Assembly: GCF_000720635.1 (NCBI RefSeq)
Contig: NZ_JOCF01000010.1
Location: 1 to 64,000 of the forward strand
DNA length: 64,000 bases
Direction: 5' to 3'
From: Streptomyces sp. NRRL WC-3742
GTDB taxonomy: Bacteria; Actinomycetota; Actinomycetes; Streptomycetales; Streptomycetaceae
Part shown: one piece after another, positions 27,309 to 46,637 of the stretch
Position numbering within the stretch: position 1 is the stretch's first letter
Layout of the letters: each line of letters opens with the position of its first letter
Notes under the pieces: generated by a model
Seen by the model: the letters and a program-made list of their open reading frames with translations, nothing else
What the model was told of the DNA's origin: nothing
Database searches by the model: none
Made by a program: the position numbers and the translations under genes

Positions 27309-27396
27309 GGAGAGCTGCCCGAGCGGCCTAAGGGAACAGTCTTGAAAACTGTCGTGGCGTGACCCGTCACCGTGGGTTCGAATCCCACGCTCTCCG
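27309..27396 (+). tRNA. tRNA-Ser (anticodon TGA), integration target
   Basis: The acceptor stem GGAGAGC (27309-27315) pairs with GCTCTCC (27389-27395), the discriminator is G, there is a long variable arm and the anticodon loop is CTTGAAA. The 3' half from 27340 on is identical to a second copy at 46577-46637, showing that it was supplied by the integrated element. CCA is not encoded. Confidence 0.97.
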
Positions 27397-27400
27397 CTGA
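27340..27400 (+). repeat. attL: Left attachment site (61-bp direct repeat, inside tRNA-Ser)
   Basis: 61 bp from the anticodon arm to 4 nt past the tRNA are identical to 46577-46637. Overlap of att with the anticodon loop and 3' end is the usual design of tRNA-targeting tyrosine integrases of AICEs. Confidence 0.95.
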
Positions 27401-27535: not shown

Positions 27536-28915
27536 CTACTCCTCGCCGTACTCCTGGTCCAAGAACCGCTCGATCAGGGTGTTGGACCGGTCTTTCCGGC
27601 CGTCGAGCACCTTCGCGTAGAACTTGAAGAGCACCGTGATGCTGTGGCCAGCACGGTGCGCGACCTCCGCCGGGTCTACGCCAGCCGCTAGCCACCCGGA
27701 AACGCAGGTGGCCCGCAAGCTGTACGGCACCTCGGCGAACGGAGTGGCCACCTGCGCGGCGGTGAGCACAAGCTTCCGGGCCTTCTTCCAGACCTCCGAG
27801 GTCTCCTTGGTGCTGACCAATCCGCCCCCAGCGGCCTGGAAGAGGCGCCCGTCGAGGCCGAGTCCGAACTCCGCCACGTGCTCGCGCAGCATCTGGACGA
27901 ACACCGGGGGGATCGGGATCTCCCGGGTGGCCTTGCGGGGGCGATGCTTCAAGCCGCGCTCCTCGTGAGACTGCCCGTCGTCGGTCCACCGCGACCCGAC
28001 CCGAGGCGAGCTGCCGGGCGCCACGATGAGACCCCATCCCGTCTCCGGGAGGGTGCAGTCGACCAGACGGAGGTGCGTGACCTCCGCCGGGCGCATGGCG
28101 GCCCAGTTGGTGCAGCCGTAGTACGTGGCCAGGTGGCGCCCGCGCAGGCCGAGTGTCCGGACTGCTTCGATCAGGTCCCGCGCCTGGCGCGGCGCGGGGA
28201 CGTACCGGAAGTCGATCTCGTTATCCGTCTCCGGTGGGTCCCACTTCACGGACTTCAACGGGTTGGCTGTGAGGAGCTTCCGCTCGATCGCGTACCCGAT
28301 CGCGCCGCTGAGGGTGGAGTACTTGCGCTTGATGGTGTTGTCCGCCGCGCGCTTCCCGTTCAGCTGCAAGGTAATGGCCGTCAGAGCTTCCCGGAGGGTG
28401 TCCGAGTCCTCCAACTGCGGTACGGGCACCGACTTTTGAGCGAGCCAGGCGAGCGCGTCCGAGAACTTCTCAGGGATCTCGCCCTGGTGGTCGGAGAAGT
28501 TGAACGCCCAGCACGAGAGGGCCCTCCGCAGCACCCTCGCTGGCGGAGCCCCACGGTGATCAGTGACGAGCGCTGGAGTGATCGTGGCCAGCCCGTCCGC
28601 CCGCGCAGCGCGTTCTTTTGCGGAGGACCCGGGCCAGGTGATCTCGGCGTACCTCTTCGCGTGGTCGAACCACGAAACCTGATTCTGCTTCTGTGTCAGT
28701 TCGCGCAACTCGGACGCCGGCAAGCCGGTCTCGACGTCGAACTCCTCGCCGTTCTTCATCGCGGTGCGGAGTTCGGCCAGCCTGCCGGTGGCGAGGGTCT
28801 TGGTGACGTAGCTCTTCGAATGCGGCTTCGACCCAACCTTCCAGCGCAGCTCAAAAGGCTTCTTCCGGTTGGCTCGTTGACGGATGGTGTACAGCTTCAC
28901 GTCGTACGTCAGCAC
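27536..28915 (-). CDS. int: Site-specific tyrosine integrase
   Basis: I start at the GTG at 28915, which follows GGAGAG; the frame continues into a hairpin upstream. The 459-residue protein has an arm/core-binding N-terminal half (KRKYSTLSGAIGYAIERKLL) and a catalytic domain. Its arginine lies in WAAMRPAEVTHLRL (about residue 275), with YSLRATCVSGWLAAG (second arginine, with tyrosine where many integrases have histidine) and RAGHSITVLFKFYAKVL (H/W position and nucleophilic tyrosine near 433). It catalyses attP x attB recombination at tRNA-Ser and lies 135 bp from attL. Excision should need the Xis next door. A hairpin directly upstream of the start may limit transcription from xis into int. 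Confidence 0.93.
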   Translation of the reverse strand: MLTYDVKLYTIRQRANRKKPFELRWKVGSKPHSKSYVTKTLATGRLAELRTAMKNGEEFDVETGLPASELRELTQKQNQVSWFDHAKRYAEITWPGSSAKERAARADGLATITPALVTDHRGAPPARVLRRALSCWAFNFSDHQGEIPEKFSDALAWLAQKSVPVPQLEDSDTLREALTAITLQLNGKRAADNTIKRKYSTLSGAIGYAIERKLLTANPLKSVKWDPPETDNEIDFRYVPAPRQARDLIEAVRTLGLRGRHLATYYGCTNWAAMRPAEVTHLRLVDCTLPETGWGLIVAPGSSPRVGSRWTDDGQSHEERGLKHRPRKATREIPIPPVFVQMLREHVAEFGLGLDGRLFQAAGGGLVSTKETSEVWKKARKLVLTAAQVATPFAEVPYSLRATCVSGWLAAGVDPAEVAHRAGHSITVLFKFYAKVLDGRKDRSNTLIERFLDQEYGEE

Positions 28916-28929
28916 GTGCTCTCCAGACA

Positions 28930-28954
28930 GGGGCCCCGGCAAGGCCGGGGCCCC
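28930..28954 (-). terminator. Hairpin between xis and int
   Basis: An 11-bp perfect GC stem (28930-28940 with 28944-28954) with an AAG loop lies 20 bp after the xis stop and 15 bp before the int start. It is a terminator or attenuator without a U-tract. Confidence 0.75.
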
Positions 28955-28973
28955 TCAGGCGTGGATTGGGTGG

Positions 28974-29165
28974 TCAGGCGGCGGTCGTGTGCTCCAGATC
29001 GGCCCACCAGGCATCGAGGTCGGAGCGGCGGACGCGGATCTGGCCGTTGGGCAGCTTCAGGAGCGTCGGCCCCTTGCCGCGGGCGACCATGCGGTAGAAC
29101 GCGCTGCGGGACATGTTGATCTCGGCGAGAACAGCGGGGAGCTTCAGGTGTTCCTGCTTGGGCAT
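28974..29165 (-). CDS. xis: Excisionase / MerR-like HTH protein
   Basis: This 63-residue protein is built as a single winged helix: LPAVLAEINMSRSAFYRMVARG is the helix-turn-helix and PNGQIRVRRSDLDAWWADLE the wing plus final helix. This is the standard form of AICE excisionases (helix-turn-helix 17). It should bind the attachment region and steer the integrase toward excision. The gene directly precedes int, separated by the hairpin. The start ATG is supported by a CCGGAGAAGCCG leader. Its 5' side faces the GTAGCGG repeat array, whose first copies lie 55 bp upstream, so the array may also contain its promoter. Confidence 0.9.
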   Translation of the reverse strand: MPKQEHLKLPAVLAEINMSRSAFYRMVARGKGPTLLKLPNGQIRVRRSDLDAWWADLEHTTAA

Positions 29166-29219
29166 CGGCTTCTCCGGAGATCCGACTTGGCGGGGCCTGG
29201 CCCCTTCCTTCTCTGGTAT

Positions 29220-29468
29220 CCGCTACTGCCGCTACTGCCGCTACCTCCCTGGTCAGGGGCATGTTTTTGGTAGCGGATTGGGTAGCGGTAGCGGATTGGT
29301 GCCGCTCCCGCCGGGGCGGGCGGGAGCGGCGGGCGGCTTACGGCGCGGCGGCGGCCTGGGCGGTCGGTTCGGCCTCGTGTAGCGGATCGGTATCCGCTAC
29401 CTCCGGCGTATCCGCTACCGGATTCAGGTGCCTGACCTGCGCGGTAGCGGCAGTAGCGGCAGTAGCGG
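29220..29468. repeat. Array of twelve GTAGCGG heptamers, candidate replication origin
   Basis: GTAGCGG occurs in plus orientation at 29270, 29282, 29288, 29379, 29444, 29453 and 29462. It occurs in minus orientation at 29220, 29229, 29238, 29394 and 29412. The outer triplets have a 9-bp period and point toward each other. The right third overlaps codons of the DUF3631 protein's C-terminus (ATAATAAT-like alanine/threonine tail). A terminator hairpin sits in the centre. Confidence 0.9.
29302..29329 (-). terminator. Terminator of the DUF3631 gene
   Basis: An 11-bp perfect stem (29302-29312 with 29319-29329) with a 6-nt loop lies 9 bp past the stop at 29338. It lies within the GTAGCGG array. Confidence 0.8.
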
Positions 29469-30603
29469 ATTCCTGGGAGCGAAGCGGACGGGGCGGGCAG
29501 TACCGCAGCCACGCGTCGGCGAGGTCGGCGGCGTAGTAGCCCTTGGCGCTGCTCTTGGGACCGGTCTTGATGCTGCGGGGCTTGATCGGGTCGTTGTCGG
29601 CCTTGACGTAGTCGCCGAGCATCTTGGCGAGGGCGCGGGCGGTGATGGGCTTGCCGTCCAGGTCGGCCCACGGGGCGTCGTCGAGCTCGGCAAGCTTGCT
29701 CAGCAGGTCGGAGCTGAGCATCCGCTCGGCGCCGCCGAAGATGTCCCGCAGGTCGGCGAGGAGGCGGATGCCCACCGAGCCCTTGTCGTTGGCCTTGGAG
29801 GCGGTGACGAGCTGGACGCAGGCGGTGCGGGCGCGCTCGGGCCAGTGGCCGCCGGCGGCGTCGGCGACGGCGAGCAGCGGCTCCCATACGTCGGCGGGCC
29901 GGTCGCTGATGCCCTCGGGCAGCACCGGCCACACGTCGTGGAGCTGGTCGCGGACGCTGGCGGCCCACTCGGCGAGGCGGTCGCGCAGCTTGTGCCCCTC
30001 CGCCTTGTGAATGCGCTCGCGGTAGGGCTCGACCTTCTCGTTGGGGGCCCGGCGGCGCATCCGGATGATGACGGAGCGGCTCATGATGGTGTCGGGCAGG
30101 TCCCCGAGGCCGCCCATGGCGAGGGCGGCGTAGACGGGGAAGGGCTGGACGGTCTGGTTGCCGCCGTCGCCGACGCAGCGCAGGACGACGCCGGAGCGGC
30201 GGTGGCCGGAGTTGATGAGGCCGCGCAGGTCTTCGTTCCCGGTGGCCTTGGGGCCGAAGACGGTGTCGATCTCGTCGAACAGCACGGTGGGGCGGGCGTC
30301 GGCGTCGGAGACGGTGCGGAACAGCGCGGCCGGGCTGACGTCGGTGGTGAGCACCGGGCGCGGGGCGATCGTCTCCATGATCTCCAGCGCGCGGGTTTTG
30401 CCGGAGCCGGGTTCGGGGCTCAGGAAGGCGATGCGGGGGGTGGACTCGAAGCAGTCGAGCAGGTGGGTGTGGGCGTCCCACAGCACGACGGCGGTGTAGG
30501 CGGCTTCGCTGGGGAAGACGTTGAAGCGGCGGTGGAACGCCTCGACGGCGTCGAGGACGGCGGCGCCGTCGATGGTGGTGACGGGCGGGTTGGGATCGGT
30601 CAT
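29338..30603 (-). CDS. DUF3631 P-loop ATPase, replication-module helicase-like protein
   Basis: This 421-residue protein starts at an ATG at 30603. Walker A is SPEPGSGKT (residues about 62-70), Walker B is TVLFDEID (D110, E111) and an arginine-rich sensor region IIRMRRRAPNEKVEPYRERI follows. The DUF3631 C-terminal part runs to about residue 375. The tail (about 376-421) is a low-complexity ATAATAATAQ and VADTPEVADTDP stretch encoded by the GTAGCGG repeats. DUF3631 proteins accompany prim-pol proteins in AICEs and phages and probably act as the replicative helicase or initiator. Binding of its own 3' repeats would place origin and initiator together, which is inference. Confidence 0.88.
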   Translation of the reverse strand: MTDPNPPVTTIDGAAVLDAVEAFHRRFNVFPSEAAYTAVVLWDAHTHLLDCFESTPRIAFLSPEPGSGKTRALEIMETIAPRPVLTTDVSPAALFRTVSDADARPTVLFDEIDTVFGPKATGNEDLRGLINSGHRRSGVVLRCVGDGGNQTVQPFPVYAALAMGGLGDLPDTIMSRSVIIRMRRRAPNEKVEPYRERIHKAEGHKLRDRLAEWAASVRDQLHDVWPVLPEGISDRPADVWEPLLAVADAAGGHWPERARTACVQLVTASKANDKGSVGIRLLADLRDIFGGAERMLSSDLLSKLAELDDAPWADLDGKPITARALAKMLGDYVKADNDPIKPRSIKTGPKSSAKGYYAADLADAWLRYCPPRPLRSQESATAATAATAQVRHLNPVADTPEVADTDPLHEAEPTAQAAAAP

Positions 30604-30682: not shown

Positions 30683-31552
30683 TCAGACGGCGCGGTCACC
30701 GGTGGCGGTGAACTCGCGGGCCGTGTCGACGAGTTCGAGGCAGGCGGTGCGGGCGCGCTGGGGCCAGTGGCCGCCGGCGGCGTCGGCGACGGCGAGCAGC
30801 GGCTCCCACACGTCGGCGGCGCGGTCGAAGACGCCCTCAGGCAACTCGGGCCGGGCGTCCGTGACCTCGTCGTGCACCCGGTCGGCCCAGGCGGCGAGGC
30901 GGTCGCGCAGGATGTGGCCCAACACCTGGTGGATGCGCTCGCGGTAGGGCTCGACGACCTGGTCGCAGGCCCGGCGACGCATCCGGATGACGACGGCCCG
31001 GCTCGTGATGCTGTCGGGCAGGTCGCCGAGGCCGGCGAGCGCGATGGCGGCGTAGGCGGGGAAGGGCCGCACGGTCTGCGCGTTGCCGACGCCGACGCAG
31101 CGCAGGACGACGCCGGAGCGGCGGTAGCCGGCGTTGATGAGACCGCGCAGGTCTTCGTTCCCGGCGGCCTGCGGGCCGAGCGCGGTGTCACTCTCGTCGA
31201 CCAGCACGGTGGGACGGGTGGCCCTGCCGCTGATCGAGCGGCCGAGCGCGGCAGGGCTCATGCCGGTGGCGTCCACCGGGCAGGGCACGAGGTCACCGAT
31301 CACGGCGAGGGCGCGGGTCTTGCCAGTGGCGGGTCCCTGGGACATGAGCGCGAGGCGCGGGGTGGACTCGAAGGCGTCGAGCAGGTGGGTGTGGGCGTCC
31401 CACAGCACGACGGCGGTGTAGGCGGCGTCGCTGGGGAAGACGGTGAAGCGACGGTGGTGGGCCTCGACGGCGTCGAGGAGGGCCGCGCCGTCCTCGGAGC
31501 CCGGGCGGGCGGTGGTGAAGAAGCTCTTAAGGGGGGAGGAGGGGAGGCTCAT
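30683..31552 (-). CDS. Second, shorter DUF3631-type ATPase
   Basis: This 289-residue protein is clearly paralogous to the downstream DUF3631 protein over about 250 residues (AAYTAVVLWDAHTHLLDAFES, EDLRGLINAGYRRSGVVLRCVG, ADVWEPLLAVADAAGGHWP). It stops before the C-terminal DUF3631 region. Walker A is QGPATGKT. The Walker B acidic pair is retained but reads LVDESDTALG instead of LFDEID. It may be a regulatory subunit or half of a hetero-oligomeric ring. Its ATG overlaps the prim-pol stop (ATGA), so it is translationally coupled to prim-pol. A terminator separates it from the longer copy. Confidence 0.85.
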   Translation of the reverse strand: MSLPSSPLKSFFTTARPGSEDGAALLDAVEAHHRRFTVFPSDAAYTAVVLWDAHTHLLDAFESTPRLALMSQGPATGKTRALAVIGDLVPCPVDATGMSPAALGRSISGRATRPTVLVDESDTALGPQAAGNEDLRGLINAGYRRSGVVLRCVGVGNAQTVRPFPAYAAIALAGLGDLPDSITSRAVVIRMRRRACDQVVEPYRERIHQVLGHILRDRLAAWADRVHDEVTDARPELPEGVFDRAADVWEPLLAVADAAGGHWPQRARTACLELVDTAREFTATGDRAV

Positions 31553-32487
31553 GCGGCGTCTCCAGTCGGGTTGTTGGCGATGGACCAGTTCAGGGCGTTG
31601 GTGATGGTCGCGTCGGCCTCACGCGCGGTCAGGCCGGCCGTCTCCGCCGCCCCCTTAAGAGCGCCCTCAACCTCGGCGCGGTCGAGCTTGCCGTTGGCGA
31701 CGAAGCGGCCCAGGGCGCGGGCGGCGCGGGTGAGGGCCCAGTTGCGTGAGCCCTCCGGGGCGCCCGCGACGTTCGCCGTCTCGTTGCGCAGGGCGGCATC
31801 CACGTAGGCGGGCCGGTTGCCCTGCCGCCAGGAGTCGAGCCGGAACGGGGTGGTTGAGGGCCTGGGCTGTGGGGTGAGCAGGCGGGTGATCCAGTCGGGC
31901 AGCGGCGCCGGGTCGCCGCCGCGTCCGACCTCGTAGCGGCGTCCGTCGACGACGCTGCCCGCAGCGACGACGTAGCCCCCGCCCGCGCGGGTGTCGATCA
32001 GCCACCCGAGCCCGGACCCGTGGTGTCCGGCGGTGTTGCGCAGCTCGACCTCGGCGGGGGCGGTGAAGTACAGGTGCAGGCCCCCGCTGGGGGTGGTGAC
32101 GGTGTAGGTGCCGTCCGGGAACGGCCGGTGGTTGCGCTGGGACAGCGCGAACAGCACGTCGAACCCGTTCTCCACCTGCTCGTCGGCCCACTCCGGGGGC
32201 GGGGCGGCGCCGGGCTTGGGGGTGTCGAGGTCGATGACGACCAGGCCGGACGGGCCGGTCGCGAGGCCGACCCCGTACGGCGCGTGCGACCAGGTGCGGC
32301 GCACGGTGTCGGGGTCGAGGGTGGCGCGCTGCTCCCATCCCTGGTGGCCGGTGGTGCAGGGGCCGGTGCGGGGGCAGGTGGCGGAGGCGTGCAGGGCGGG
32401 GCGCTTGCTGTGGGGCAGCAGAGGGAAGACGCGCCAGCCGCGTTCGACGGCGTTGAGGGCGGCGTTGAGCAGGGGGTTGCCGGTCAC
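31549..32487 (-). CDS. Bifunctional DNA primase/polymerase (prim-pol)
   Basis: This 312-residue protein has an N-terminal prim-pol domain (residues about 5-210). The metal-binding aspartates lie in LVVIDLDTP (D86, D88), the histidine is H138 in PSGGLHLYF, and the later acidic loop is LGWLIDTRAGGGYVVAAGS. An alpha-helical C-terminus follows (residues about 240-305, GSRNWALTRAARALGRFVA). Prim-pol proteins synthesise primers and extend them; they define the RepPP class of AICE replication. It is coupled to the downstream short DUF3631 ATPase and follows the zinc-finger gene, from which it is separated by a hairpin. Confidence 0.92.
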   Translation of the reverse strand: MTGNPLLNAALNAVERGWRVFPLLPHSKRPALHASATCPRTGPCTTGHQGWEQRATLDPDTVRRTWSHAPYGVGLATGPSGLVVIDLDTPKPGAAPPPEWADEQVENGFDVLFALSQRNHRPFPDGTYTVTTPSGGLHLYFTAPAEVELRNTAGHHGSGLGWLIDTRAGGGYVVAAGSVVDGRRYEVGRGGDPAPLPDWITRLLTPQPRPSTTPFRLDSWRQGNRPAYVDAALRNETANVAGAPEGSRNWALTRAARALGRFVANGKLDRAEVEGALKGAAETAGLTAREADATITNALNWSIANNPTGDAA

Positions 32488-32547: not shown

Positions 32548-32910
32548 TCAGAGGTCGAACAGGGTGTCCGGCTCGGTGGCCGGGGCGGACGCGTGGCGGG
32601 CCGCGATGGCGGCGCGGCGGGTGGCGTCGTGGCAGGTGGGGCACCAGGCGGCGAGCGAGCGCTTGGGCAGGGCGGCGGCCTGGTGGGAGGGCAGCAGGAG
32701 GCCGTGCGGGTCGGCGGGGGCGGCGAGGAGGCGGACTGGCCCGGTGCCGTGGCGGTGGCCGTAGCCGCCGTGGACGGCGGGGCAGCGCCCGCCGTCCTTC
32801 TCGTGGTTCTTGCCGCAGGTGCCCCGGCACTGGCATCGGCCGGCGGCGGCCGCGAGGACGGCCTGCCACAGGCCCTGCTGGTCGCCGAGCGGCGGGGTGC
32901 GGGCGGTCAC
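32548..32910 (-). CDS. Small HNH/zinc-finger-like protein
   Basis: This 120-residue protein has its GTG (32910) overlapping the stop of the methyltransferase reading frame (GTGA); an ATG at 32919 is an alternative. It has four cysteines in a CQCRGTCGKNH...GRCPAVHGG arrangement and a later AWCPTCHDATRRAAIAARH. This looks like a treble-clef zinc site similar to HNH-type proteins that occur in many Streptomyces elements. The catalytic HNH residues are not clear, so it may only bind DNA. Coupling to the methyltransferase suggests a possible modification/restriction pairing, but this is inference. Confidence 0.72.
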   Translation of the reverse strand: MTARTPPLGDQQGLWQAVLAAAAGRCQCRGTCGKNHEKDGGRCPAVHGGYGHRHGTGPVRLLAAPADPHGLLLPSHQAAALPKRSLAAWCPTCHDATRRAAIAARHASAPATEPDTLFDL

Positions 32911-34485
32911 GACGCCCATCCCGTGGCCAGCTCGTTCCCGGTGATGGCCTCGACCAGGGCGGAGACCAGGAGTTCGGCGACGTTGGAGGTCACGGCGTTG
33001 CCGAACTGGCGGACCTTCTCCCGCTTGTTCCCGATCACCACGTAGTCGGGGGTGAAGCTCATCGCGGCGCCGATCTCGTGCGGCTCCAGCATCCGGAACA
33101 GCACCTCGTCCACGTCCGCCGTTCCCTGCTGGCCGCCTGCGGCGAGGCCGTAGCGGTCGCGGGTGGTCAGGGTGCCGACCGGCTCGCCGACGGGGCGGGC
33201 GGTGCTGTTGCCGTAGTACGGGGTCAGCAGCGCCGACCAGTCGACGGCGGTCGAGCCAGGCGGCAGGCTGAGGCCGTGGTGGTTGCCGGAGGCGGTGACG
33301 GTGGCGAGCGCGTCCAGGACCGGGCGGGCGTCGGAGCCGCCGCCGCGCAGTTCGGCGATGAACGGCAGCCAGGCCAGGCCGGTCTCGTTGCGGGCGGTCT
33401 GGGTGCGCATCGGCTCCCCGATCTGCCCGGCGGCCTTGCCGTCGCGGCCCTCGGTGGGCACGAGCAGCGGCGGCACGGCCAGGCCGTCGTTCTCGCGGGT
33501 GGTGCGGGTCGGCGCGGGGACGGTGACCGGGGTCGCCTCGGTGCGCCAGGTGCCGCCGGCCGGGGCGAGCAGCGGGGCGCCGTACTTGCGGATTCCGGCG
33601 CGGATGCGTTCGCGGGTCGCGGCCGCGTACGGCGTGAACTTGCGTCCGGGCTTGCCGTCGCCGATCCGGCGGCCGGTCAGCGACCAGTCGATGATGCTCG
33701 CGGCCGGGACGACGGGCGGCTCGACGACGGCGTTGCGGCAGGCCACGTTCGGGCAGCGGTAGACGTACTGCTGGCGGTAGCGGCCCATGTCGGCCCCGGC
33801 CCGCTTGAACACCTGCACCGCCCGCACCGTCTTGTCGCAGCCCTCGCACCAGGCCAGGGGCCTCAGCCACTTGTCCCAGTCGGGGTCGTGGCCCAGGTCG
33901 GCGCGCCAGTAGGCGAGGTAGAGGCGGTCGCGGGACTGCGGGGCGACGGCGATCACCGAGGGGCGGGCGGTGCATGGAGTTCAGGGCGATCAGGCGGGTG
34001 CGGTAGCCGGGGCCGACCTGCCGGATCTCCTGGACGAAGGCCGACCAGAGGTCCCAGGCGCGCACGTCGATCACGTTCTCGACGACGCCCGCGAGGACCG
34101 GCTTGCCCCGGGCGGCCATGGCCTCCAGGTAGCGGGGGACGTCCCACATCAGGGCGCGGGAGCGGTCGGTGGCGGCGTCGGGCAGGGTCTCGCCGAACAG
34201 GTCGGGCTGTCGGTCGAAGTCCCGCTTCACCCCTCGGGCGTTGGACCACTTCGGGCACTCGGGGGAGGCCCAGAACAGGTCGGCGGCGGGGAACTTGGCG
34301 ACGTCGGCGTCGTGGAGGTCGCCGAGGAAGTGGTCGGCGGCAGGGAAGTTCGCGGCGTGGCTCGCGATGGCCTTGTCCCAGTGGTTCGCGGCGAGGACGG
34401 GGGTGACGCCGGGGACGGCGGCGGCGCCGGTGCTGGAGCCGCCGGCGCCGCAGAAGAAGTCGATGTAGGTCAGGCCCGTGGTCAC
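32907..34485 (-). pseudogene. Cytosine-C5 DNA methyltransferase with a +1 frameshift
   Basis: The gene begins at a GTG at 34485, which overlaps the previous stop (GTGA). The first part has motif I (IDFFCGAGGSSTG), motif IV-like WASPECPKWSNARG and motif VI VENVIDVRAWDLW. The frame is then broken near 33969: one extra base in ATGCACCGCCCGCCCC shifts reading, and the downstream frame resumes with motif VIII APQSRDRLYLAYW. It continues to motif X FGNAVTSNVAELLVSAL at 32907. Without the extra base a 525-residue enzyme would result. The second part can also initiate at the GTG at 33956. It is either a true inactivation, a sequencing error, or +1 slippage on CCC-C. Confidence 0.85.
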
Positions 34486-35063
34486 CGGCCACCCCCGGAC
34501 AGGTCGTTGACGAGGTGGGCGTGGGCGTTGGCCCAGACGGCGAGTTCCTCGACCACGGACTTGGCTTCGATCGTCATGATCGGGCCCGGCTCGGCGGTGC
34601 CGGGTTCGATCAGCAGGTGGTCGGGCACGGGCAGGAGCAGGGTGGCGGTGGCCAGGAGCAGGGCCTTGTCGGCGTACGGCTCGATGAGGCGCCCGAAGCC
34701 GCGCTCGGTGCCCCACGGGTCGGGCTGCCAGTCGCCCAGGCGGTGGTCGGGCCGGTGGGCGAGCGCGGAGTGCCGCAGGGGCACCTCGACGCGCAGGGCC
34801 ACCTCGTTGTGGGCGGCGGGGACGACGGTGACGGCGTGCAGGTCGGGGCGGATGCGCACGTAGCCGGGGGACATGACGGGGCTGGTGGCGATCTGCCAGG
34901 CGCTGCACGCGAACTCGGCGGCGGTGAGCGGCTGTCCGTCCTCGTGCAGCAGGCGCTTGTTGCGGGCGAGGTAGGCGCCGTAGCGGGAGTCGCCGTTGGA
35001 AGCGCGCTCGCGGTCGTGGACGTCGTCGACGACGGCGAGCGTGCCATCGGTGAACTGGGGCAT
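34482..35063 (-). CDS. Hypothetical element protein coupled to the methyltransferase
   Basis: This 193-residue protein starts at an ATG at 35063 and overlaps the methyltransferase start by 4 nt. No known domain is recognised. Segments such as RYGAYLARNKRLLHEDGQPL, HNEVALRVEVPLRHSA and LLLPVPDHLLIEPG suggest a mixed alpha/beta protein, and it is acidic at the end (TIEAKSVVEELAVWANAH). Coupling to the DNA methyltransferase suggests a joint role in DNA protection or recognition. It is preceded by a hairpin that terminates the SSB gene. Confidence 0.7.
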   Translation of the reverse strand: MPQFTDGTLAVVDDVHDRERASNGDSRYGAYLARNKRLLHEDGQPLTAAEFACSAWQIATSPVMSPGYVRIRPDLHAVTVVPAAHNEVALRVEVPLRHSALAHRPDHRLGDWQPDPWGTERGFGRLIEPYADKALLLATATLLLPVPDHLLIEPGTAEPGPIMTIEAKSVVEELAVWANAHAHLVNDLSGGGR

Positions 35064-35100
35064 GCTGGAGTCCTCTGGTCTCTGAGAGGGGATCGGACGG

Positions 35101-35150
35101 GCCCCGCAGCAGCCGGACGACCTTGCCGGGATGGCCGTCTGCTGCGGGGC
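35101..35150 (-). terminator. Long hairpin after ssb
   Basis: GCCCCGCAGCAG (35101-35112) pairs perfectly with 35139-35150 around a 26-nt internal segment. It lies 31 bp past the ssb stop. Confidence 0.8.
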
Positions 35151-35180
35151 TCATTTGTGCTGTTCGGGGTTGTGGTCCGG

Positions 35181-35621
35181 CTAGAACGGCGGCTCGGTCG
35201 AGCCGTCGGCCGGGGCGCCGCCCCACTCGGTCCCGGGGGCGACGGGAGCGGGGGCGTCGGTGGACCACGGGTCCGTCTGCCGCGTGGCCGGGCCACCGCC
35301 GTTGCGCTGGGTCTTGGTGACCTTGGCGGTGGCGAAGCGCAGGCTGGGGCCGACCTCGTCGACGTCGAGGCCGACGATGGAGCGGTTCTCGCCCTCGGGG
35401 GTCTGCCAGTTGTGCTGCACGAGGCGGCCGGTGACGACGACGCGCGTGCCCTTGGTCAGGGACTCGGCGACGTTGGTGGCGATCTCGCGCCAGGCGGTGG
35501 CGCGCAGGAACAGCGCGGTGCCGTCGCGCCACTGTCCGGTGGCCTTGTCGTAGGTGCGCGGGGTGGAGGCGACGGTGAAGCGGGCCATGGCCACGCCCTG
35601 CGGGGTGAAGTCGGCGTCCAC
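35181..35621 (-). CDS. ssb: Single-stranded DNA-binding protein, N-terminally short
   Basis: This 146-residue protein starts at a GTG with AAAGG upstream. The OB-fold matches actinobacterial SSB from the second half of strand 1 onward: MARFTVASTPRTYDKATGQW, LFLRATAWREIATNVAESL, TRVVVTGRLVQHNW, LDVDEVGPSLRFATAKVTK. It then has a Gly/Pro tail ending EPPF, the acidic tip that recruits partner proteins. The usual first 18 or so residues are absent (a GNLVDDPELR-like strand). No in-frame upstream start restores them, so the protein is either a shortened form or depends on oligomer complementation. It likely serves replication of the excised element. Confidence 0.85.
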   Translation of the reverse strand: MDADFTPQGVAMARFTVASTPRTYDKATGQWRDGTALFLRATAWREIATNVAESLTKGTRVVVTGRLVQHNWQTPEGENRSIVGLDVDEVGPSLRFATAKVTKTQRNGGGPATRQTDPWSTDAPAPVAPGTEWGGAPADGSTEPPF

Positions 35622-36668: not shown

Positions 36669-38789
36669 TCAGCCCTCGGCGGAGGGCCGTCCGGCGTGGG
36701 TGCGGTGGACGTAGCGGGTCTTGGTCCCCGACCCGGTCCGCACGACCTCTCCCGTCTCTGCCCACTCCTTCAGCCAGCCGTTGATGGTCTGGCGGGTGGT
36801 GCCGAAATCAGGCTTGAGGATCTTCTCCATGGCGGAGGCGCCGGTGCCCTCGGGGCCGGCGGCGCGCAGCAGTTGCAGGGCGGCGTCCTTGGCGTCGGGG
36901 GTTTCGGGCGTCGGCTCGTCGCGGCCGGTGGACCAGGTGGACGGGTCGGCCCAGTCGGTTCCGGCCGGGGTGGTGCCGGGCTCGGGTGCGGGAGGCAGGA
37001 GCCAGATCGACTCCAGTTCGTCCTCGGGTGTGGCGGCGGGCTTGTCCCATCCGGCGGTGGCCTTCCAGCCTCCGGCTGGGGCGGCGCTCTTGCCCGGGGC
37101 GGTGGCCGTGCCGCCGGACGCCGGGCCGGTGGGCGCGGCCGGGGTGGCGGCGGCGGTGACGGGTTCGGCCCACAGGTGGCCGCAGCGTTCCATCAGCCAG
37201 CGGTCGGTGTAGTCGGCGCCGGCGGCTTCCAGGGAGGGGGCGTCGAGGGTGGGGCGGCGGCGGGCGGTGAGGGCGCTGATCTCCTCGATCATGTCGGGGG
37301 TGATGCGGGGCTGGCGGGCCTTGGCGGGCTGCTTGCCCTCGGTGCCGACCAGCACCGAACCGGGGCCTGAGAACGAGTCCTCGGCGCGCAGGGCACGCCA
37401 GCCGAAGAGGTGGCCGAGCTCGGAGTCTTCGAGGGCGCCGGTGGCGAGGCGGTTGGAGGCCATCTTGCGCACGAGCGGGTCGGGCATGACGTCCTGGGTG
37501 ACGCGCAGGACGGAGATGACGGCGCGGATCGCCATGGCGCGGGCGATGCGGACGACTTCGGAGATCCCGGCGAGGATGGCGCGGGCCTCGCGGGTGGCGG
37601 CGGCTTCGGCGCCCTCGTCCATGACGATGACGATCTCCGGGATGGCCGGGCTCACGGGGAGCTTGTCGTCGTTGGCGTCGCGCATCGCGTCCTGGTAGGC
37701 GGACTTGCGGGTCTTGGCGATGCGGACGGCGGCGGCGAGCATGCGCTTGGCCTCCTCGACGGTGGAGGCGACCCAGTCGACGCCGGGCACGGGGATGTCG
37801 GCGTTTGCCCAGGGGGAGCCGTCGCGGCCGAGCTGGGCGTCGCGCCAGGCGTTGAGCCAGGGCAGGCCGATGGAGCCGCCGTTGAGGTCGATCACCCACA
37901 CCAGCACGTCGTTGGTCTGGTTGAGCCGGGCGATGAGGGTGTGGAGCCAGTTCGTCTTGCCGGTGCCGGTGGGGCCGGTGGCGATCGTGGACGCCTGCCG
38001 CAGGTCCATCTCCGCCCGGGCGCCGTCGGACAGCAGCGCGATCGGGATCAGGTTGTTGACGGTGGTGACTTCCTCCATCTCCTCGACGGGGAAGAGGAGC
38101 GCGTCGGTCAGGACGCGGGTGGTGACCTGGATGATTACGCGGCGCCGGGAGATGCCGGGCATGACCTGGAGGCCGCAGCCGTCGGGCAGGTCGAGGTCCG
38201 TGCCGAGTCCTTCGGCACGCTCCGCGATGGAGCGGCGGGTGGTGCCGCCTTCGGGGAGTTCGAGTTCGAGGGTGTAGCCGGCGCCGGAGGGCCAGTGCTC
38301 GATGCCCAGCACGGTGACCTCGACGCCGCAGACGCGGCGGATGCGGTCGGTCCAGTCGGCGGCGAGCTGGCGGCGGGCGCCGATCAGCAGCAGGTGGGTG
38401 CGCTTGGCCTGCTCGACCTCCTCGTGCGCGGCGAACGCGGCGCCCAGGGTGCCGGCGGCGATCCCGGCGGCGGCGAGCGTGCCGAGCTGGGGCCACTGCC
38501 AGGGGCCGCCGTGGGCGAGCGCCCAGGACGACCAGCCGCCGGCGGCCATCCAGCAGGTGCCCCGGAAGGCGAGCGTGGCGCCGGTGAGCTTGCGGCGCAG
38601 GCCCGCGCCGAGGGTGCCGAGTGTTCCGGCGGCTCCGGCGGCGAGCGCCCATCCGGCAGGCATGCCGGTGGCGTGGCCGAGCGCGGTGGTGGTCAGGGCG
38701 CCAGCGGTGGCGTTGAGGGTGCCGGACAGCAGGCCGTGTCCGGCGCTCCAGTCGAGGCGGGGGCCGGTGTTCTTGCTGGTCTTGGTCAT
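36669..38789 (-). CDS. FtsK/TraB-type DNA translocase (conjugative transfer pump)
   Basis: This 706-residue protein starts at an ATG at 38789. The N-terminal part holds hydrophobic segments (about 20-60 and 75-120). The FtsK/SpoIIIE motor has Walker A GPTGTGKT (272-279) and Walker B VIVMDEGAEA (D391, E392), with ASNRLATGALEDSELGHLF downstream. A Pro/Ala linker and a C-terminal winged helix follow (about 640-695, ASAMEKILKPDFGTTRQTINGWLKEWA). TraB-type pumps of Streptomyces plasmids move double-stranded DNA between hyphae after recognising repeated octamers at clt with the winged helix. The adjacent CTTGTCG array is the obvious candidate target. Confidence 0.93.
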   Translation of the reverse strand: MTKTSKNTGPRLDWSAGHGLLSGTLNATAGALTTTALGHATGMPAGWALAAGAAGTLGTLGAGLRRKLTGATLAFRGTCWMAAGGWSSWALAHGGPWQWPQLGTLAAAGIAAGTLGAAFAAHEEVEQAKRTHLLLIGARRQLAADWTDRIRRVCGVEVTVLGIEHWPSGAGYTLELELPEGGTTRRSIAERAEGLGTDLDLPDGCGLQVMPGISRRRVIIQVTTRVLTDALLFPVEEMEEVTTVNNLIPIALLSDGARAEMDLRQASTIATGPTGTGKTNWLHTLIARLNQTNDVLVWVIDLNGGSIGLPWLNAWRDAQLGRDGSPWANADIPVPGVDWVASTVEEAKRMLAAAVRIAKTRKSAYQDAMRDANDDKLPVSPAIPEIVIVMDEGAEAAATREARAILAGISEVVRIARAMAIRAVISVLRVTQDVMPDPLVRKMASNRLATGALEDSELGHLFGWRALRAEDSFSGPGSVLVGTEGKQPAKARQPRITPDMIEEISALTARRRPTLDAPSLEAAGADYTDRWLMERCGHLWAEPVTAAATPAAPTGPASGGTATAPGKSAAPAGGWKATAGWDKPAATPEDELESIWLLPPAPEPGTTPAGTDWADPSTWSTGRDEPTPETPDAKDAALQLLRAAGPEGTGASAMEKILKPDFGTTRQTINGWLKEWAETGEVVRTGSGTKTRYVHRTHAGRPSAEG

Positions 38790-46576: not shown

Positions 46577-46637
46577 TCTTGAAAACTGTCGTGGCGTGAC
46601 CCGTCACCGTGGGTTCGAATCCCACGCTCTCCGCTGA
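46577..46637 (+). repeat. attR: Right attachment site (61-bp copy of the tRNA-Ser 3' part)
   Basis: This is identical to 27340-27400 over 61 bp. Upstream of the repeat there is no tRNA 5' half, so this copy is a pseudo-tRNA end and not a functional tRNA. Confidence 0.95.

Follow-up and report, generated by a model that had tools for sequence, protein, structure and literature searches.

The stretch analysed here, hereafter the window, comprises 64,000 nucleotides of Streptomyces sp. NRRL WC-3742 (contig NZ_JOCF01000010.1, positions 1 to 64,000) and contains a 19.2-kb actinomycete integrative conjugative element (AICE). A dense array of the heptamer GTAGCGG (29220..29468, both strands) lies at the 3' end of the gene for the element's DUF3631 replication protein, RepAM. 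Very probably this array is the vegetative origin of the element, and RepAM, acting as a self-loading helicase, reads these iterons located 3' of the repAM gene. The initial annotation had put the array forward as a candidate origin for the adjacent replication protein, and the comparison of related loci strongly supports that suggestion.

Twelve exact GTAGCGG copies are found within 249 bp, seven on the plus strand (29270, 29282, 29288, 29379, 29444, 29453 and 29462) and five on the minus strand (29220, 29229, 29238, 29394 and 29412). This number, as initially reported, is confirmed and lies far beyond chance: in 2000 dinucleotide shuffles of a 297-bp region GTAGCGG reached at most 2 copies per shuffle (mean 0.18). 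Because the word had been picked by eye, we took the count of the commonest 7-mer of any kind as the fairer control, and this reached at most 9 in the same shuffles (mean 2.9). When the window was divided into 250-bp stretches in steps of 25, the maximum for a single 7-mer was 11 at the array and 8 at the next stretch. GTAGCGG occurs 26 times in the whole window, whereas dinucleotide shuffles of the 64 kb contain 7.6 copies on average and never more than 14, and the triplet GTAGCGG-N0-6-GTAGCGG-N0-6-GTAGCGG is present only twice in the 8.74-Mb genome, both times in the array.

Read along the RepAM gene, the array has two arms, both composed of an outer block of three copies at 9-bp pitch and a further three copies on the inside. 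The outer blocks (block 1, 29220..29244, minus strand; block 2, 29444..29468, plus strand) are the two facing triplets that had been described. The inner copies, on the other hand, are not pairs as first described, but form two looser groups of three, giving an array of 6 + 6: those of arm 1 are all on the plus strand (29270..29294; starts 29270, 29282 and 29288), while those of arm 2 are mixed (29379..29418; 29379 plus, 29394 and 29412 minus). An inverted repeat of 101 bp at 76% links both arms, and a symmetry axis at 29344 pairs 10 of the 12 sites. Symmetry about a 12-bp hairpin (29301..29330), as proposed earlier, is rejected, the axis being 28 bp from the hairpin centre at 29315.5. This hairpin starts 7 bp beyond the stop codon of RepAM and is possibly the transcription terminator of the gene; in 45 of 116 related loci, a stem of 9 bp or more without mismatches occurs no further than 90 nt from the RepAM stop. 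An Rfam search of 28900-29700 gave no match.

The array partly overlaps the coding end of the DUF3631 protein, with six of the twelve copies inside the frame that ends at 29338. The tail of this frame over the array reads ATAATAAT, and the view that it is a by-product of the DNA repeats holds up well: model confidence (pLDDT) is below 50 from residue 375, and the frames of the related loci stop at varying points in the array (4 of 116 enclose no copy, 41 enclose 1-3 and 71 enclose more).

The related loci were assembled from 175 loci, of which 154 were unique by sequence at the gene end; after nine partial ones were dropped, 145 proteins remained. Of these, 116 share more than 55% identity, including the window's own (L004), and the other 29 form a distant set. 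All 116 possess an array, defined as one word repeated at least five times where the RepAM gene ends. The refuting case named in the initial annotation, related elements with the same replication genes but no array, was thus found in none of these 116 non-partial loci above 55% identity. Two of them are circular plasmid records of 13-14 kb (NZ_CP108973 and NZ_CP108827) with the same module. Among the partial loci left out, L065 has an array, while L021 (66% identity, with a match that stops at residue 298) shows no GTAGCGG in the 900 nt checked. In the distant set (29-51% identity), 17 of 29 loci repeat a different word at this position beyond all 200 shuffles, and 12 have no significant repeat at the RepAM 3' end.

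The geometry is also broadly shared among the 116 loci. Outer blocks were recognised on the RepAM side of 115 loci and on the far side of 95, with 168 and 135 intervals of 9 bp, respectively, and 7 and 31 of 8 bp; 38 additional intervals of 28-29 bp on the RepAM side lead to further copies. The total of word-family copies is 10-14 in 102 loci. As to distribution, matches to the window RepAM were obtained in 39 of 100 relatives, 42 of 70 genomes of the genus, 24 of 396 in the phylum sample and, at E <= 0.001, in 223 of the 394 genomes sampled from the family; these four sets overlap. For the comparison, 100 regions were taken besides the loci returned by searches, and only part of the matches was fetched. 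The best 120 of 7211 homologues from the protein search are, where named, mostly from Kitasatospora and Streptomyces.

Array words change as a set. The dominant word is GTAGCGG in 90 of the 116 loci, GTGGCGG in 15, GTTGCGG in 9, and GTTACGG and GTAACCG in one each. In the tree of RepAM residues 1-310, the GTTACGG locus L166 is the sister of L163, which has GTAGCGG; all outer copies of L166 read GTTACGG, in the same geometry as in its GTAGCGG relatives. In the same tree L089 (GTGGCGG) adjoins L041 (GTAGCGG) and L114 (GTAGCGG) is nested in a GTGGCGG group, and at least 12 word changes are required overall. Both words are mixed in many of the GTG and GTT arrays.

Some further arrays were observed at the edges of this survey. 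L100, L044 and L077 mix GTGGCGG and GTTGCGG and have G at RepAM residue 344, as if the reader tolerated both words or a switch were under way. Three distant loci of the phylum sample, L055, L052 and L066, have other array words (TGTTCCGCATA, GGTACC and GTTGCAC), partly within the coding end. With a view to incompatibility, genomes with several RepAM elements were compared. One genome (G104) contains two RepAM elements with different words, GTAGCGG in L076 (C1:2414488) and GTTACGG in L166 (C1:4385075), while all three RepAM elements of another (G206) have GTAGCGG, such loci having been chosen partly for being pairs. Another RepAM on the window's own contig (153762-154967, L075) belongs to a clade at 41% identity, has an in-frame stop and is accompanied by an array of GACGG-type words.

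RepAM (29338..30603, minus strand; PF12307, 217 bits against a curated cut-off of 24) is modelled as an AAA+ core of the MCM/SF3-like helicase type with a C-terminal winged helix. The PDB matches of the predicted model are MCM, D5, BrxL and PriRep1 (7pds), the last of which is the SaPI5 protein, and the sequence contains a P-loop, GSGKT, and a Walker B motif, with VLFDE at 107. The winged-helix domain (residues 294-368; 29500..29724, minus strand), our proposed heptamer reader, is delimited from predicted models with middling fold matches, and the fold alignments took in 100 and 74 of 240 listed proteins besides the window's RepAM. Searches with the RepAM sequence gave no match to solved structures or to PHROGs.

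This model also bears on a quite improbable alternative, namely a rolling-circle origin or cruciform, where one strand of the long inverted repeat would fold out into a hairpin that RepAM recognises or at which it nicks. The folding energy of the strand, -97.4 against -60.5 kcal/mol in shuffles (z -9.9), agrees with such a structure, and where both outer blocks are equally spaced the spacers are complementary at 68 of 84 letters, compared with 38 for random arm pairing (maximum 56 in 200 tries). In addition, PMC3218068 defines RepAM by DUF3631 and predicts that it initiates rolling-circle replication at nick sites like those of pC194, and the authors of the pWTY27 study proposed stem-loop recognition for that Streptomyces plasmid (PMC3583192). 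However, the spacing of both arms is equal in only 21 of 43 loci with clean 3 + 3 outer blocks, hence a perfect stem is not kept, and the likeness of the spacers may stem from homogenisation of the arms. Moreover, RepAM possesses the GSGKT and VLFDE motifs and lacks the H-hydrophobic-H metal motif of HUH initiators (only HTH is present, at residue 45), and the pC194-like nick sites CTTGATA, CTTGTAA and CTTGACA, searched as exact strings, are absent from 27.4-41 kb. With an MCM/SF3-like AAA+ helicase as the predicted fold of RepAM, the earlier prediction of rolling-circle replication is probably mistaken, and the evidence points to replication of RepAM elements by another mode.

Two other alternatives assign the array to a different protein, and both were confronted with module swaps among the 102 of 116 loci with at least 8 kb. 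Control of excision, by binding of Xis or Int or through an operator for xis-int, is less probable still. The array does lie directly upstream of xis-int, and a title cited in PMC3218068 places the replicase, excisionase and integrase genes of pSAM2 in one operon. However, each of three Xis clusters (BLASTP links at 1e-6 over 60% of the length; 55, 20 and 12 of the 102 loci) occurs with GTAGCGG and at least one other word, so that the word is independent of the Xis cluster and an Xis-bound array is rejected on this comparison. Two smaller Xis clusters (6 and 4 loci) resemble spurious frames. All five words are found with the largest integrase cluster (89 frames), and the attachment site is on the other side of int. 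Least probable is a role of the heptamers in double-stranded DNA transfer, as clt/TRS sites for the FtsK-like Tra. The element has such a Tra, and in Streptomyces the C-terminal winged helix of TraB recognises 8-bp motifs that occur as repeats (PMC3583192). However, GTAGCGG occurs with every one of three Tra families that share no significant BLASTP similarity, GTAGCGG, GTGGCGG and GTTGCGG are all present within one TraB family (75-82% identity to that of L001), and the window array adjoins repAM, 7 kb away from tra. The word is thus independent of the Tra family, and a Tra-bound array is rejected on this comparison.

The array word is instead associated with the RepAM wing, independently of the Xis, Int and Tra clusters, as far as sequence comparison can tell. 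The RepAM columns richest in information on the word are 352 and 344. In tree-independent contrasts, based on a tree without the winged helix, column 344 has the highest rank among 345, with 3.9 concordant contrasts of 5 and none opposite, and column 352 is next among the real residue columns (2.9 concordant); twelve gap columns of the variable tail rank between them, nine at 3.83. The sign test for residue 344 alone is not significant with so few contrasts (p 0.125), and within the non-GTAGCGG group 2.8 of 4 contrasts are concordant (p 0.25). Codon 344 (29572..29574, minus strand; Ser in the window) falls in a predicted wing strand and codon 352 (29548..29550, minus strand) in the partner strand. 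A complete one-residue code at 344 was rejected; S and P at this residue also occur with GTAGCGG (L111).

A second conserved box is found on the inner side of the outer blocks, with the word-independent consensus CGCAGGTCAG. Its GGTCA core lies 6 nt from outer block 1 (29251..29255, plus strand), and the mirror box (GCAGGTCAG) has its core 6 nt from outer block 2 (29433..29437, minus strand). The GCAGGTCAG box keeps its sequence and its fixed offset from the outer blocks while the word changes. GGTCA is present in the far-side spacers, the side of outer block 1, of 106 of the 116 loci (100 at offset 6) and in the RepAM-side spacers of 59 (56 at offset 6); among loci with called outer blocks it is present in 88 of 95 on the far side and in 61 of 115 on the RepAM side, compared with 3 and 1 in one shuffle per spacer. 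As a facing pair anywhere, GCAGGTCA occurs exactly in 22 of the 116 loci and with at most one mismatch in 48 (0 and 5 in shuffles), and in the 29 distant loci in 2 exactly and in 6 with a mismatch. Several distant relatives with other words retain GCAGGTCA. Within the 41% clade the two copies are mostly in the same orientation, which argues against the facing pair as a universal rule.

By analogy, our guess is that the second box may be a start site for the Prim-Pol encoded nearby: the pRN1 primase requires a GTG motif in its template, and CCPol-MP of SCCmec, a staphylococcal cassette chromosome element, starts efficiently at the iteron region of its helicase (PMC7581432). A wider proposal, which we put forward tentatively and consider rather doubtful, is that RepAM origins form a recoding system, in which the wing and nearly all iterons switch jointly and neither the AAA+ core nor the architecture is altered, combined with an invariant GCAGGTCAG start box. 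Element lineages would then differ in their origin codes. The GCAGGTCAG box, facing in close relatives, would not be read by the wing and would serve shared machinery, most likely the start of Prim-Pol on each melted strand.

If the array is the origin read by RepAM, RepAM subunits would bind the heptamers through their C-terminal winged helix, one site per subunit, and several subunits would assemble per arm; with six sites here, one hexamer per arm is the simplest case. The hexamers would melt the DNA on the inner side and then move outwards both ways, Prim-Pol would make primers on the opened strands, and replication would follow excision, with the element as a circle. Two facing hexamers would give bidirectional forks, and hence a bidirectional theta mode is envisaged. 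Two hexamers are also suggested for the Rep protein of Staphylococcus aureus pathogenicity islands (SaPI) in PMC7581432. Two observations weigh against details of this scheme. A strict count of two hexamers is not kept, since arms have 3-11 copies (mode 6 on both sides, in 38 and 28 of 116 loci) and exactly 6 + 6 occurs in 14 of 116. An AT-rich melting zone between the sets, as in phage-inducible chromosomal islands (PICI), is absent: the array centre is the most GC-rich part (AT 0.12-0.16 in 29300-29374), and within 29000-29700 the 50-bp stretch with the highest AT content (0.44) begins at 29250, beside the arm 1 box. The array is 3' of RepAM and 5' of xis-int, so that any transcriptional effect would concern the excision genes and not the rep promoter; the initiator autoregulation proposed initially is thus unsupported, while RepAM itself could use the array as an operator alongside its use as origin.

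RepAM is common among the replication types of actinomycete conjugative elements. If the proposal is right, their replication resembles that of phage satellites and SCC elements in relying on an iteron origin and a helicase that loads itself. Natural switches of the word, for instance between L163 and L166, provide a ready-made test of how such an initiator reads its origin, and the array could be used as a compact origin for actinobacterial vectors.

The element itself is flanked by identical 61-bp repeats of the tRNA-Ser end, one (27340..27400) in the end of the tRNA-Ser gene (27309-27397) and the other (46577..46637) at the far end. It is assigned to the AICEs on the basis of an integrase and Xis beside a tRNA attachment site and direct repeats at both ends. 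Between the repeats, on one strand, follow integrase, Xis, the array, RepAM, a truncated DUF3631 gene, Prim-Pol, an SSB-family protein and an FtsK-like protein. The integrase (27536..28942, minus strand; phrog_1) has no Pfam family and its start codon is not fixed, and the Xis-like HTH_17 protein (28974..29165, minus strand) matches phrog_66 (excisionase). Prim-Pol (31549..32487, minus strand; PF09250) is the proposed primase of the same replicon; it was unmatched in 13 of the 102 loci by the window-based search and in 12 by profile, and the one of these 12 that was checked, L172, contains a divergent Prim-Pol at 38 bits. The FtsK/SpoIIIE-like transfer protein (36669..38789, minus strand; 706 aa) scores 15.8 of the 24 bits needed for PF01580 and is homologous to Tra-like proteins beside other RepAM genes. 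The second DUF3631 gene (30683-31552, minus strand), between RepAM and Prim-Pol, is 69% identical to RepAM over residues 12-270 and has no winged helix; an adjacent second copy was seen only in the window among the 116 loci, many of which have limited upstream sequence. It is perhaps a helicase core without its DNA reader, either a decay product or a partner in mixed hexamers. The 32548-35532 frame contains, at about 33.9-34.5 kb (minus strand), the stretch IDFFCGAGG, found by eye, which resembles the start of a DNA cytosine methyltransferase; Pfam returned no family for its 32548-34440 part.

Several known systems share parts of this arrangement. SaPI and PICI likewise have a self-loading helicase initiator (here predicted from the model), an origin that directly follows the 3' end of the initiator gene and contains short iterons in two sets, a primase homologue, and xis and int in the element (PMC6092414, PMC7581432). 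Their iterons are read by the C-terminal domain, and here residues 344 and 352 seem to be associated with the word. In contrast, the present system has a DUF3631 protein, an actinobacterial conjugative element, facing copies within each set, the extra GCAGGTCAG box, an array overlapping the coding end and no AT-rich centre between the sets. Because of this missing centre and the different protein family, we do not file the element as a PICI but as a RepAM AICE. In the SCCmec pattern-2 system (Cch2, CCPol-MP) the helicase C-terminal domain binds direct repeats downstream of its gene, where the primase-polymerase starts efficiently (PMC7581432), but there are only three AAGTG iterons and the helicase and polymerase families are others; the available text does not mention conjugation genes. 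AICE RepAM proteins of the pMEA300 type share PF12307, the int, rep and FtsK-like tra modules and sometimes Prim-Pol, but are predicted to use rolling circle, and the accessible part of PMC3218068 makes no mention of a repeat array or cognate word. The plasmid pWTY27 (repA, repB, iteron; 14.3 kb) combines a primase/polymerase, a second Rep protein and an int gene with adjacent 7-8 bp repeats in both orientations and an inverted repeat of about 105 bp; a bidirectional mode was inferred, and gel shift and footprint were done there (PMC3583192). It differs in its word, GTGGGAAC, and in its RepA of 522 aa, whose DUF3631 membership is not established here, and word switching is not mentioned in the available text. 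As this iteron locus with primase/polymerase and inverted repeat is known, an iteron origin as such is not new. The literature searched, mostly without subscription journals, contained no paper describing a RepAM iteron origin, word switching, the wing link or the box. What is new, compared with these systems, is the assignment of an iteron origin to RepAM elements, the set-wise switching of its word, the link to the wing and the constant box.
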